Assembly: GCA_003290465.1 (NCBI GenBank)
Contig: CP030759.1
Location: 474,672 to 538,671, forward strand
Origin: Candidatus Sumerlaea chitinivorans
GTDB lineage: Bacteria; Sumerlaeota; Sumerlaeia; Sumerlaeales; Sumerlaeaceae
Reading direction: 5' to 3'
DNA length: 64,000 bases
Below, in pieces: positions 45,692 to 52,190 of the stretch (the stretch's first letter is position 1; the number at the start of each line of letters is the position of its first letter). The notes below the pieces were generated by a model, which had not been told where the DNA came from, did not search any database, and saw nothing but the letters and a program-made list of their open reading frames with translations. A program made the position numbers and the translations under genes.

Positions 45692-46906
45692 TTGAGTCGC
45701 TTAGACTACATGACAGCCGGCGAATCGCATGGTCCTCAGCTTACGGCTATTATCCGGGGAATCCCTTCTGGGCTCGCCTTGACAGCCGAGGATATAAACC
45801 GTGATCTTGCGCGGCGGCAACTTGGCTATGGCCGCGGCGGTCGAATGAAAATCGAAAAAGACACCGTCGCGATTCGCTCTGGAGTACGCAAAGGTTACAC
45901 CCTCGGCTCGCCCATAACGCTTGTGATTGAGAATCGTGACTACCAAGCGTGGCGCGACCAAATGGCGCCAGAGCCGGGGGAGTTGGATAACCGCAAGGTA
46001 GTCACTCGCCCCCGGCCGGGGCATGCGGATTTGGTCGGCGCCCTGAAGTTTGCGCACCGGGATGCACGGAATGTTCTGGAGCGCGCCAGCGCGCGCGAAA
46101 CAGCGGCGCGTGTTGCAGTTGGGGCCGTGTGTAAGACCTTGCTCGCCAACTTTGGCATTCAGATCTACAGCCATGTGGTGAATCTCGGGGGCATTGCCGC
46201 CGAACCGAAAGGTCTTTCCCACGAGGAAATCGCAGCCCGAGCTGAGACCAGTGAGCTCCGCGTTGCGATTCCAGAAGTGGAAGCGCAGATGCGTCAGCTC
46301 ATTGATCAAGCCAAGGCAAACGGCGACACCGTGGGCGGCGTCTATGAGGTCGTAGCTCTCGGCGTACCCCTTGGCTTGGGTAGCACCATGAATTGGGATG
46401 AAAAGTTAGATGCCCGCCTCGCTGGAGCGCTCATGAGCTGTCAGGCTATCAAAGGCGTAAGCATTGGGATGGGATTTGACGTCGCCAATCACCTTGGCTC
46501 ACGGGTCCACGATCCCATCGCATACACAGCCGACCGAGCTGAACAAGAGAGGCTTGCGCGTGAGCGTGGCCGAGGCCCTTCGGGTGGCTTCTATCATCTC
46601 TCAAATAACGCCGGCGGAATTGAAGGGGGAATGAGCAATGGGGAGCCTATCGTCGTCCGTGTCGCCATGAAACCAATTGCGACATTGATGAAACCGTTGG
46701 CGAGTGTGGACCTTGCTACAAAAGAGCCTTTCGAGGCAGTCCGCGAGCGCAGCGATGTATGTGCAGTTCCTGCCGCTGCTGTGGTGGGTGAAGCCATTGT
46801 GGCATTTGTGCTTGCACAAGCATTTCTGGAGAAGTTCGGTGGGGATTCGATGGTTGAAATTCGGCGAAACTATGATTCCTACGTGGAATACCTGCAGGCG
46901 TACTGA
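45692..46906 (+). CDS. aroC: Chorismate synthase
   Basis: This 404-residue enzyme converts EPSP to chorismate with reduced FMN. Signature blocks include TAGESHGPQLTAIIRG at the N-terminus, the RPGHADLVGALKFAH block, and GAMYH-like FMN contacts in the RNVLERASARETAARVAVGAV region. The start is a TTG at 45692: the residues SRLDYMTAGESHG match the family N-terminus and no ATG lies before the essential GESHG. A GAGG lies about twelve bases upstream. The stop overlaps the start of the aroK-cmk fusion by one base. Confidence 0.96.
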   Translation: MSRLDYMTAGESHGPQLTAIIRGIPSGLALTAEDINRDLARRQLGYGRGGRMKIEKDTVAIRSGVRKGYTLGSPITLVIENRDYQAWRDQMAPEPGELDNRKVVTRPRPGHADLVGALKFAHRDARNVLERASARETAARVAVGAVCKTLLANFGIQIYSHVVNLGGIAAEPKGLSHEEIAARAETSELRVAIPEVEAQMRQLIDQAKANGDTVGGVYEVVALGVPLGLGSTMNWDEKLDARLAGALMSCQAIKGVSIGMGFDVANHLGSRVHDPIAYTADRAEQERLARERGRGPSGGFYHLSNNAGGIEGGMSNGEPIVVRVAMKPIATLMKPLASVDLATKEPFEAVRERSDVCAVPAAAVVGEAIVAFVLAQAFLEKFGGDSMVEIRRNYDSYVEYLQAY

Positions 46907-48126
46907 TGAGTAACAACGTCGTTCTCATTGGCATGATGGGCAGCGGCAAAACGACGGTTGGCCGGTTGCTCGCCGAGAAAGCCGAAATGGAGTTCGTCGA
47001 TCTCGACGAAATGATCGAGAAGCGCACGGGAAAGCGCATCGCTCAAATCTTCGAAGAAGAGGGTGAGCAAGCCTTCCGCCTTTTGGAAACCGAAGCCCTG
47101 CGCGAAGTTTTGGCGGCGAACCGGACGGTGATTGCAACGGGTGGCGGGATCGTGACTCGGCCCGAGAACCGGCGCCTTCTGCGAGAAGCCGGGCTTGTGG
47201 TTTGGCTGGACGCACCCGCTGAAGAGTTGAGTCGGCGGATCGGTTCGGATCAAAGCCGTCCGCTGTTGCGTGGCCACGCCAGCATCCTCAAGCAACTCGA
47301 ACAACTGTTAGCTGAGCGCCGCGTGATGTACGCCGAAACATCCGATATCCACTTGGATACCACCGAGCACACGCCTGAGGAAATTGCGGAACGCATCTTG
47401 GAAGAACTCGAGAACCGCACCCTGGCAACGGACGAGGAAGTTTTTGCTACCATTGTGGCCATTGACGGTCCTGTAGCTTCAGGTAAAAGTGCGCTTGCTC
47501 GCCGGCTGGCCCGCCGGCTTGGTTTTACACATATCGACACGGGGGCAATGTACCGGTGTGTGACCTACGAAGCCATGCGGCGTGGCATCCCGCTCGACGA
47601 TGAGAAGCAGGTGACGGACGTTGCTCACTCAATTGATATTCGGTTTCTGGAGGACGAGGGAGATTCCGAACATAAGCGCGTCTTGCTCAATGGCGAAGAT
47701 GTCACAGAAGTGATTCGTAGCCCAGAGGTCAGCAGGAACACCAGCCCCATTGCCGACATTGCCTCCGTTCGCACGGAGATGGTTCGCCTGCAGCGCCAAC
47801 TTGCGCTTCGTGGCCGTTGTGTGCTCGAAGGACGAGACATCGCCACGGTGGTTGTGCCCGAGGCAAAGTGGAAATTCTACGTTGTTGCCTCGTTAGAGGA
47901 AAGGGTTCAGCGTCGGCATCGTCAGTACGTAGCGGAGAGCCGGGAGGTGCCGTTAGAACGCATCCGTGAGGATATCCTGAGCCGCGATGAGCGCGACAGA
48001 AACCGAGCTCATGGCGCACTGAAGCTTGCTCCGACCGCTATGATTTTGGATACCACCGGGATTGGCCTTGAGGAAGCGGTGGAAATCATGGCGGCCATCA
48101 TCGAAATGTCGGAAGCACAGGGATGA
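46906..48126 (+). CDS. Shikimate kinase-cytidylate kinase fusion
   Basis: This 406-residue two-domain protein has one continuous frame. Residues 1-170 are a shikimate kinase (AroK): Walker A GMMGSGKTT at 9-17, the shikimate-binding Asp-Leu-Asp at 32-34 and GGG at 79-81. Residues 180-406 are a cytidylate kinase (Cmk): DGPVASGKS at 187-195, DTGAMYR at 211-217 and a GRDIATVV block. It links aromatic amino-acid synthesis (neighbour aroC) with pyrimidine nucleotide phosphorylation. The cmk-plsC order downstream is common in bacteria, so the fusion joins an aro cluster to that block. No frameshift or stop separates the domains. AroA-Cmk fusions are known; AroK-Cmk is less familiar to me. Confidence 0.93.
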   Translation: MSNNVVLIGMMGSGKTTVGRLLAEKAEMEFVDLDEMIEKRTGKRIAQIFEEEGEQAFRLLETEALREVLAANRTVIATGGGIVTRPENRRLLREAGLVVWLDAPAEELSRRIGSDQSRPLLRGHASILKQLEQLLAERRVMYAETSDIHLDTTEHTPEEIAERILEELENRTLATDEEVFATIVAIDGPVASGKSALARRLARRLGFTHIDTGAMYRCVTYEAMRRGIPLDDEKQVTDVAHSIDIRFLEDEGDSEHKRVLLNGEDVTEVIRSPEVSRNTSPIADIASVRTEMVRLQRQLALRGRCVLEGRDIATVVVPEAKWKFYVVASLEERVQRRHRQYVAESREVPLERIREDILSRDERDRNRAHGALKLAPTAMILDTTGIGLEEAVEIMAAIIEMSEAQG

Positions 48127-48846: not shown

Positions 48847-50412
48847 TTACATCCCCGTCTTGGGCACGTCCTCGCTGCGAGCTGATTCGCGCATAGCGAT
48901 CAGCTTGTTGATCGCATTCACGTATGCCTTGACGCTTGCAGTGACGATATCCGTGCTGGCGCCTCGGGCCCGAACGCGGGTGCCATTTGCGCGGATTGCG
49001 ACCGACACCTGCCCGACGGCATCGGTACCACCGGTGACGGCCTCAAGCGAGTAATCCACAAGTTCAGCTTCAACTCCTGTAATGCGCTGGACCGCGCGGA
49101 ACGCTGCGTCGACGGGGCCATCCCCACAGCTCGCATCCATCTTGTACTCATCGCCTTTTTTGAGGCGGACCGTAGCCGTCGGGACTGTGCTTGTCCCGCT
49201 TGTGAACCCGAGGTAATCGAGGCTGTAAACCTCCGGCGAGCCAAACACTTCGTCCTCGACGATCGCGTAGAGGTCTTCGTCGAAGATCTCCTTTTTCTTG
49301 TCGCAGAGTTCTTTGAACCGTTCGAAGAGACGATTGATTTCCTGCTCGCTGAGCTGATCGTAGCCGAGCTGCGCCAAACGCGTCTTGAAGGCATGACGGC
49401 CAGAGTGTTTTCCGAGTACCATAGACTCTCCAGTCCAGCCGACTTCCTCTGGCCGCATGATTTCGTACGTGGTGCGTTCCTTCAACACACCGTCCTGATG
49501 GATTCCGGATTCATGCGCAAACGCATTTGCCCCTACGATGGCCTTATTGCGTTGCACGCGGATTCCCGTGATCTCCGACACAAGCCGCGAAGTGCGGTAG
49601 ATTTCCTCGGTCTTAATGCCAGTGGTCAAACCGTAGAAATCCTTACGCACCTTCAGATTCATCACAATCTCTTCAAGCGAGGCATTTCCTGCCCGCTCGC
49701 CGATTCCGTTGATCGTGCATTCGACTTGGCGGGCGCCCTCGCGCAGAGCTGCCAGCGAATTGGCGACCGCAAGGCCAAGATCGTTGTGGCAATGCACACT
49801 AAAGACCACTTTGTCGGCGCCCCGCACATGCTTGCGCAGGTAGGCAATACACTGTCCAAATTCCCATGGATTTGTGTATCCCACCGTGTCGGGAACGTTG
49901 ATTGTTGTGGCCCCGGCTTCGATGACCGCGCTGATTACATCAACCAGGTAATTCCAGTCGGTGCGGCCAGCATCCTCGCATGAGAACTCCACGTCGGGGG
50001 TGAAGGTCTTGGCGAGCTGCACAGCCCGCACGGCCGTTTCAATGACCTGTTCTTTCGTCATCCGCAGTTTCTTTTCGATGTGGATCTGGGACGTAGCGAT
50101 GAAGGTGTGGATACGCGGGCGCTTGCTCCGCGTCACAGCTTGGCCGCAGCGCACAATATCCTTTTCAATGGCGCGTGCGAGTCCGCAGATGATCGGCCCC
50201 TCCACTTCTTCTGCGATTGCAGCGACTGCTTCGAAATCGCCCTGCGAGGAAATCGGGAACCCAGCTTCAATGACATCCACACCAAGACGGGCCAACTGGT
50301 GTGCAATCTCCAGTTTCTCGCGGTGGTTCATTGTTGCTCCGGGCGATTGCTCGCCATCGCGCAAAGTTGTATCGAAGATAATTACTCGATTCGGATCCTG
50401 CATCGGTACCAT
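48847..50412 (-). CDS. leuA: 2-isopropylmalate synthase
   Basis: This 521-residue enzyme condenses acetyl-CoA with 2-oxoisovalerate, the first step of leucine synthesis. The catalytic TIM barrel starts with [14 protein letters not shown] and contains the metal-binding [19 protein letters not shown] is also present. The C-terminal regulatory LeuA domain (about 390-505), which gives feedback inhibition by leucine, is complete. The start at 50412 ([16 protein letters not shown]) has an AAAGGTG ribosome-binding site; the longer frame to 50463 is not needed. Expression is controlled by the leucine T-box upstream. Confidence 0.95.
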
Positions 50413-50650
50413 GGCTTTAACACCTTTCGTTAGAACATGATTTGGTTTCGTGCCTGAATGCAAACGTGTCAGTTATTTCGTGGTAAAAGGATTACGGAGT
50501 CTATAGGAGGGTCATAGCGCGAGCGTGCTGCGGGAGCGAAACGAATAGCCTGCCACCTCCCGTTTCCGAGAGGTCGAATTTCGTCCGAATGATTCCGGAA
50601 TCTCGCTCCAACTTATCCTATGGAAATGTTTGTCTCGCATGCGACTGTGC
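50413..50650 (-). other. Leader between T-box terminator and leuA start
   Basis: About 240 bases lie between the T-box terminator and the leuA ATG. A hairpin with a GAAA-type loop (ACCTCTCG paired with CGGGAGGT, about 50556-50575) is visible. No gene is seen. The ribosome-binding site is at the end next to 50412. The length is unusual for a T-box leader, which normally ends close to the gene. Confidence 0.45.
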
Positions 50651-50686
50651 CCTAAACAAAATCCCCGCGACATTGATGCCGCGGGG
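50651..50686 (-). terminator. T-box attenuator terminator
   Basis: CCCCGCG (50663-50669) pairs with CGCGGGG (50680-50686), and the minus-strand continuation is ATTTTGTTTAGG. This is the terminator of the T-box switch; it competes with the antiterminator that includes the T-box sequence at 50701-50713. Confidence 0.85.
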
Positions 50687-50940
50687 ACGAAACTATCTTC
50701 GTGGTACCACCCTGCTTCGCAGTGTCTTGCCTAATTAGGTTGAGGCTTGACCACTGCCTTCATTGCCTCTTTTACGCCGAGGACCGCGGCAACAGCTAAC
50801 GCGACACATCTGCGTCGTGCTTCACTGTTGCGGCTCCGAGGCGAGTTCGGAAGGCTCCCCACCGCTTCGCACCAACCAGCGGCTCTCTCCAAGGCGGAGT
50901 TGCTTCCTACTACTCCTCTTCATCGCCTTTGTAAGAAGTC
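50663..50940 (-). promoter_or_regulatory. T-box riboswitch, leucine specifier (CUC), controlling leuA
   Basis: Read on the minus strand, the leader shows the full T-box order. Stem I has GATGAAGAGGAGTAGTA near 50924-50908, then GGAGAGAGCCGCTGGTTGGTG (AG-bulge and GNTG elements), and the specifier loop with GAA-CTC (the CTC codon is at 50845-50843). Stem III and the T-box AGGGTGGTACCAC (50713-50701) follow, then the terminator. The CTC specifier means leucine, matching leuA. The UGGU of the T-box pairs with an ACCA tRNA end, consistent with a tRNA-Leu discriminator A. Uncharged tRNA-Leu binding is expected to stabilise the antiterminator and allow leuA transcription. The minus-strand gene at 51039 ends just upstream, so leuA likely has its own promoter in 50925-51038. 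Confidence 0.9.
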
Positions 50941-51038: not shown

Positions 51039-52190
51039 CTACTGGGTGACTTCAATAAGGCCAGGAGACTTCGTCTTTTCTTCTTCGAGCGGAGGCTCAA
51101 CCAGCGTTCCGCGCTGGAGTTCGCTCTCCCGAGTGCGAATTTCCCCGTCAGGCCCCACGATGTCATACGGCGAGACGTGTTGCGTGAGAATGTTGACTTG
51201 TGCCTCGCTCACATCGCTGACGGGCTCTGCGGAATAGACAAACTGTTGTCCGCCGATCTGAACTTCCAACGGTTGCCCAACGCCAAAATTCGTCCCGTAG
51301 TACCAATCATCGCGGCTGAACTTTCCCTCAGCAGCAACCCACCGACTGGCATTAGCCCGACGACCCCACGCTGTGGCCCACCGTGTCAAATCCTGATCTT
51401 GTTGAGCCAACCATTCCAAATACTTCTTCCGCACGTCCTCACGCCTCTGGAGGCGCTCATAAAACTCCAAGTTCTCATCACGTTGCCTGTTTACTTCTTC
51501 CTGCGCTGCTTTATCGTAAGCTGTCTTCAGGTCTTTGCGGTTTGCCACGACAGCTTCCTGGCTCGAAACATTGAAGTCTGGGTCTGGCAAATCCTCTGAA
51601 GCATTCGGCAGCAGTTGTTCCTTTACATAGCGACCATACAGCTCAAGCTGCTGGAAGTAAAAATCCCAACTTGCAAAGGCACGGGGATCCGCCCCTTGCT
51701 GCTGCTGCGCCCCTGCTTGTGGGTTGCCGTATTTCTGCGCTAAACTTGCAATTTCCTTATCCTTGATCTTTTTGGCCTCTTCCACCGACATCTTTTCGCG
51801 GAGAACGCCGTACTCGTCATGAGCCACAAATAGAAATTCATATAGTTCAATCGGGCCAGCTGGGGCGCCTGCCACGGCCGTGGTCGTCTCGCTTGCCTCC
51901 TCTGTGACAGAGCCCAGCGACGGAAGTGGGGGAGGCGTACCCACTGCCTCTCCGGCGGGTGGAAGCGGTGCTAAACCTCCCTGTGGTTGAGTGGCTGGCG
52001 GCGCCTGGGCTGTACCCCCATCCAAAGGTGCTAAAGAGGGAAGCGGTGACAGACCAGCTGCAGGTGCAGCGGCTGCAGGGGCGGGGGCAGGAGCAGTTGC
52101 AGGATCCTCAGCTGCACTCGCACACGATGCAACCGCAACGACCCCCACGATCACACTGTACCAGAGCCACTTTTGGCTTACCATGCTCAT
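51039..52190 (-). CDS. Secreted protein with Ala/Pro-rich linker and helical domain, unknown
   Basis: This 383-residue protein has a signal peptide (WYSVIVGVVAVASCASAA, with Cys near the cleavage site so a lipoprotein is possible). A long Ala/Pro/Gly-rich linker follows (about 28-105), then a helical, charged domain (about 115-300) with repeated Glu/Lys/Gln and Tyr-Trp residues, and a final beta-like region. I recognise no family. Rich disorder in the linker suggests a periplasm-spanning or surface-tethered protein. The start could also be the Met at 52184. It precedes the leuA T-box on the same strand, and the DUF374 gene starts 94 bases away. Confidence 0.65.
   Translation of the reverse strand: MSMVSQKWLWYSVIVGVVAVASCASAAEDPATAPAPAPAAAAPAAGLSPLPSLAPLDGGTAQAPPATQPQGGLAPLPPAGEAVGTPPPLPSLGSVTEEASETTTAVAGAPAGPIELYEFLFVAHDEYGVLREKMSVEEAKKIKDKEIASLAQKYGNPQAGAQQQQGADPRAFASWDFYFQQLELYGRYVKEQLLPNASEDLPDPDFNVSSQEAVVANRKDLKTAYDKAAQEEVNRQRDENLEFYERLQRREDVRKKYLEWLAQQDQDLTRWATAWGRRANASRWVAAEGKFSRDDWYYGTNFGVGQPLEVQIGGQQFVYSAEPVSDVSEAQVNILTQHVSPYDIVGPDGEIRTRESELQRGTLVEPPLEEEKTKSPGLIEVTQ

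Follow-up and report, generated by a model that had tools for sequence, protein, structure and literature searches.

A leucine T-box and a probable second leucine sensor in series upstream of leuA in Candidatus Sumerlaea chitinivorans

The leuA gene of Candidatus Sumerlaea chitinivorans, a species for which a complete genome (BY40) has been published (PMC8092238), is almost certainly preceded by a full-length leucine T-box, as its sequence anatomy indicates, and the host is a diderm. A short open reading frame (ORF) lies between the T-box terminator and leuA, and comparison with relatives suggests that leuA is probably governed by two successive leucine sensors, first the T-box and then this leader ORF. 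The coding nature of the ORF is well supported by the pattern of sequence change; its leucine sensing, its output and its action on leuA are what we infer.

Rfam covariance models were used to search the window, a 64,000-nucleotide stretch of the genome. The T-box model (RF00230) matched the minus strand at 50932..50680 with a score of 110.9 bits (E 1.2e-23), above the gathering score of 93 across the whole model, and this was the sole Rfam match within the 64-kb window. The first-pass annotation had called a leucine-specific T-box upstream of leuA, in a diderm, without stating the strand, and had named the Rfam search as a check and the lack of a match as one possible refutation; the match bears the call out. 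A scan of the whole 3.29 Mb single-contig genome showed that this T-box is the only one. The elements listed in the annotation can be read in the sequence (Table 1): AGAGAG and GGUUGGUGCGA in Stem I, the GAA-CTC leucine specifier, the T-box sequence, and a terminator with a competing pairing. CCCC is common to the terminator stem and the antiterminator, which makes the two structures mutually exclusive. The predicted fold of the T-box region is more stable than those of dinucleotide-shuffled sequences (z = -2.9).

Table 1. Features of the leuA leader and leuA, in window coordinates.
Feature	Position	Strand	Basis
T-box leader RNA (RF00230)	50680..50932	minus	Rfam model 1-219, the whole model; Stem I, Stem II / IIA-B region, Stem III, antiterminator
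Specifier codon CUC (Leu) in GAA-CUC-GCC specifier loop	50843..50845	minus	sequence; Leu codons in relatives; genomic tRNA-Leu(GAG)
Antiterminator with T-box sequence AGGGUGGUACCAC (50713..50701)	50684..50713	minus	sequence; covariation in relatives
Bulge UGGU, predicted partner of tRNA 3' ACCA	50709..50706	minus	sequence; tRNA-Leu(GAG) end
Intrinsic terminator, 12-pair stem then TTTTGTTT	50661..50688	minus	sequence and terminator scan; overlaps antiterminator 3' arm
Upstream ORF (putative leader peptide), 42 codons, MRDKHFHRISWSEIPESFGRNSTSRKREVAGYSFRSRSTLAL then stop	50512..50640	minus	sequence and comparison with relatives
Putative control codons CTC-GCG-CTA (Leu-Ala-Leu), directly before stop TGA	50515..50523	minus	sequence; Leu positions kept in relatives
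leuA Shine-Dalgarno AAAGGTG	50427..50421	minus	sequence
leuA, 2-isopropylmalate synthase, 521 aa	48847..50412	minus	ATG at 50412; tblastn relatives 54-85% identity

Five tRNA-Leu genes were found among the long-arm tRNAs of the genome, and exactly one has the anticodon GAG. This tRNA carries the discriminator A and an encoded CCA end, so it ends in ACCA and is a perfect partner for both the CUC specifier and the UGGU bulge. The T-box step is indicated by anatomy and conservation, and its mechanism most likely follows the established T-box scheme. Uncharged tRNA-Leu(GAG) would pair through its anticodon with the specifier and through its 3' ACCA with the bulge, and the bound tRNA would stabilise the antiterminator, allowing RNA polymerase to read through the terminator at 50661. 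The order on the minus strand is a gene of unknown function at 52190..51039, a 106-nt gap, the T-box, the terminator, a 248-nt stretch and leuA. Elsewhere in the window, a 406-aa ORF at 46906..48126 on the plus strand, directly after a chorismate synthase gene, looks on visual inspection like a fusion of shikimate kinase with cytidylate kinase.

The closest named relative of this LeuA belongs to 'Candidatus Sumerlaeota bacterium' (85%). Of 40 Sumerlaeota genomes surveyed, 29 have a T-box, one each; among the 20 of high quality the figure is 19. leuA is directly downstream of the T-box in 27 genomes, or 28 counting G033, where T-box and leuA are on two contigs with overlapping ends; about 30 Sumerlaeota genomes bear leuA. 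The exception is G032, which has its T-box before a trpE-like gene and a leuA without one. This T-box (L098, G032:C5:27862-28110) sits on a contig that is AT-rich, in a bin of 66% completeness, and is likely contamination or a transfer from a Firmicute. A T-box is absent from 11 genomes; in nine of these a LeuA search at 1e-60 gave no match, G003 has only a 36% homologue, and G038 has leuA. The idea that a leuA T-box is general among LeuA relatives was rejected, as 50 LeuA-related genomes outside Sumerlaeota had T-boxes in only four, before other genes.

The specifier in Sumerlaeota is mostly CTC; seven genomes, from families f5, f12 and f13, have CTG instead. Both codons are leucine codons, and variation confined to CUC and CUG gives independent support for the leucine assignment; a conflicting specifier in relatives, which the annotation had held open as a counterargument, did not turn up. 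The antiterminators of relatives have double compensatory changes at 4 of 10 pairs and an invariant GGG/CCC core. Sumerlaeota LeuA sequences form one clade in a quick tree, and the outgroup class (G039) also has the T-box, which indicates that the T-box is old in the phylum. A search of the freely available literature returned no T-box report for Sumerlaeota. The locus is thus a useful phyletic data point, as first claimed, in that the phylum is new; the novelty is modest, since this is a known element and leuA T-boxes of diderms have already been published for Geobacter and Pelobacter.

The stretch between the terminator and the leuA ATG had been described as unusual and about 240 bases long. 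The length agrees with our measurement, and the conserved upstream ORF inside it had been overlooked. The ORF starts just past the U-tract of the terminator, with AGGG at 50653..50650 as a possible ribosome site, and ends in FRSRSTLAL-stop 99 nt before leuA; its tail holds only two leucines. The stretch is single copy in the genome, which removes a repeat or mobile origin, and a search for an internal sigma-70 promoter within it found none.

T-box-to-leuA distances in Sumerlaeota are bimodal, with short gaps of 54-116 nt and long gaps of 158-394 nt, and many leuA T-boxes, those with the short gaps, lack the ORF. Its absence from so many of them means that it is not essential, and is one of three observations that fit regulation of leuA by the T-box alone, with the stretch as a spacer and the ORF as a chance or decaying frame. 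The others are that the 263-nt stretch of this genome folds no better than shuffles (z = +0.5), which also led us to reject a strong switch structure here, and that the ORF bodies are unconserved. The body is 55% identical between L086 and L087, with a shuffled level of 60%, whereas the tail is 93% identical.

The frequency, the leucine content and the tail of the ORF argue against a spacer. A blind rule that ignores sequence and accepts ORFs of at least 15 codons was applied to 19 long gaps; it found an ORF in 18, compared with 8.3 ± 2.1 in shuffles (maximum 15 in 300), and chose a non-conserved frame at a few loci such as L092 and L099. Leucines in the last 12 codons numbered 2.67 versus 0.93 ± 0.36 in shuffles (0/300), about a threefold excess. 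The last nine codons in six genomes of family f1 differ by 60 synonymous versus 33 non-synonymous changes, a result equalled in 0 of 3000 column shuffles, and the same test was weaker in family f12 (161/3000); shuffle tests on related loci overstate significance. The other two frames of the f1 tail gave synonymous/non-synonymous counts of 9/80 and 3/82. The f1 changes include TCN/AGY serine switches, and both tail leucine positions are kept in 6 of 6 family members having the tail. A different conserved ORF occupies the same place in Desulfuromonadia (below), and we consider the spacer explanation unlikely.

The ORF ends are recognisable within families. Same-family ends are FRSRSTLAL (L086 and L087) and PSRSTLSL (L105), with FPARSTLSLRGW and FPSRVTLSLRRW carried by L093 and L110; family f12 ends in LL.[GA]LRL..P (L100, L104, L106 and L108), and the family f4 ORF carries CPRTLAL. 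At two Gammaproteobacteria leuA loci, L057 and L071, short ORFs situated some 150 bases upstream of leuA end in LLLPLLRLLP-stop and LLSLRLP-stop; these endings resemble those of f12, and the ORFs are probably classical leucine leader peptides. The leuA leader of G038 (L114) has an ORF ending YTLPL-stop and no T-box, and families f10, f11, f13 and f15 have the T-box without the ORF, so each element can stand alone. A promoter-like site, TTGATT-N17-TAGTAT, lies before the G038 ORF. CUC and CUU are in excess in the ORF tails overall (32 of 51 versus 17.0 expected); this genome shows no such excess, its own leuA being rich in both codons. Families with a CUG specifier have CUC/CUU-rich ORFs, so the two sensors need not share a tRNA, and we dropped the idea that they always do.

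The region behind the ORF was searched for a regulatory output. There is no intrinsic terminator between the upstream ORF and leuA, the only terminator-like site being the one that precedes the ORF. The Leu leader family (RF00512) had no match in the window or in the relatives' stretches searched, and the stretch matched no Rfam family besides the T-box apart from a sub-threshold match in relative L106 (E 0.17). A hairpin at the ORF stop is weak in this genome and strong in several relatives, with z below -2 for hairpins at or just after the stop in 9 of 16. These hairpins would suit a tail that serves as an RNA structure or protein site, its coding look being incidental, and the actinobacterial LEU element, which joins leucine codons and structure before leuA (PMC1262725), offers a precedent. 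This is very unlikely, given that the tail changes follow the codon frame, that Rfam matches are limited to the T-box and the weak one in L106, and that no strong hairpin is present in this genome. A pseudoknot of the LEU type, between Leu codons and the leuA Shine-Dalgarno, is absent from the minimum-energy fold, a kind of fold that cannot show pseudoknots.

Leucine codons at the ORF end together with a stop hairpin in many relatives fit control by ribosome position. Downstream of the ORF the RNA is richer in C than in G, both in this genome (29% versus 13%) and in most relatives, and the genome encodes Rho. Rho-dependent termination is therefore possible, the other candidate output being control of leuA translation.

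The same arrangement occurs in a second phylum. T-boxes before leuA have been published in Geobacter sulfurreducens and Pelobacter (PMC2494555), tRNA-Leu(GAG) being the tRNA assigned to the Geobacter element (PMC2700814). We found a T-box, one per genome, in 116 of 117 genomes of Desulfuromonadia, a class name inferred from these published cases. leuA is behind the T-box at all 39 readable loci, with a CTC specifier in 38 and CTG in 1. As here, the T-box is full and an upstream ORF lies behind the terminator in many. A conserved ORF start, [V/M/L]-E-S-D-L-[G/S]-[D/E]-L, was identified between terminator and leuA at 19 loci, about half of those sampled, and is preceded by a strong GGGGGTGG ribosome site; ORFs of this type are found among L163, L166, L168, L170 and L173-L198. 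Codon differences in the ORF are 377 synonymous versus 208 non-synonymous (0/1000 shuffles), which is an overwhelming signal of coding.

The Desulfuromonadia ORF differs from the Sumerlaeota ORF in having its conserved part, the peptide ESDLGDL, at the N-terminus with no leucine run, and in overlapping leuA at some loci, where its stop and the start codon of leuA coincide (as ATGA in L168 and L170). Both features fit an ORF whose translation, without any leucine sensing, would either bring ribosomes to leuA through coupling or re-initiation, or protect the mRNA. The Sumerlaeota ORFs speak against such a role, because they stop about 90-145 nt before leuA, which is far for coupling, and their conserved part is the leucine-bearing C-terminus; it has a small chance of being correct. 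Each group has its own LeuA clade in the quick tree, and a horizontal transfer of the leuA-T-box pair between them was unsupported. The difference between the peptides indicates that the arrangement probably arose separately in the two phyla. No description of a T-box combined with an upstream ORF was found in the literature searched.

Known leucine leaders share parts of this architecture. The Bacillus subtilis ilv-leu T-box also uses leucine-tRNA antitermination of leucine synthesis but serves a whole ilv-leu operon with additional protein regulators, according to passages of PMC5794164 and PMC12452182, and those passages do not mention a leader ORF. The LEU element of Actinobacteria (PMC1262725) likewise has a leucine-codon leader peptide immediately upstream of leuA; it has no T-box and is defined by a pseudoknot and by Leu codons paired with the leuA Shine-Dalgarno. 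Short leucine-codon ORFs before leucine genes are also found in the leucine-rich Staphylococcus aureus ilv-leu attenuator peptide (PMC5794164) and the enterobacterial Leu leader (RF00512); in these leaders the terminator is behind the ORF and there is no T-box, whereas here the terminator precedes the ORF and belongs to the T-box. A riboswitch followed by a conserved small ORF is described for the Mycobacterium tuberculosis Mbox (PMC12810186), there with Rho-dependent termination; the Mbox is a Mg2+ sensor, not a leucine sensor, and is not a T-box.

In the preferred two-sensor reading, transcripts that read through the T-box terminator would expose the short leader ORF with its Leu codons before the stop. 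Ribosome speed over these tail codons would set leuA expression, most likely through the RNA between the ORF stop and leuA, by Rho-dependent termination or by access to the leuA ribosome site. More broadly, we tentatively suggest that diderm leuA leaders stack two independent leucine-starvation sensors as a serial AND-type gate, with unrelated peptides, in an arrangement that arose at least twice, in Sumerlaeota and in Desulfuromonadia. The survey traces the leuA T-box back to near the base of Sumerlaeota and shows its specifier alternating between leucine codons. T-boxes and leader-peptide attenuators are usually seen as alternatives, used by different lineages to sense amino-acid starvation. 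Their joint presence in a single leader, in each of two diderm phyla, would if true mean that they can be stacked, and would raise the question of why a cell measures the same amino acid twice.
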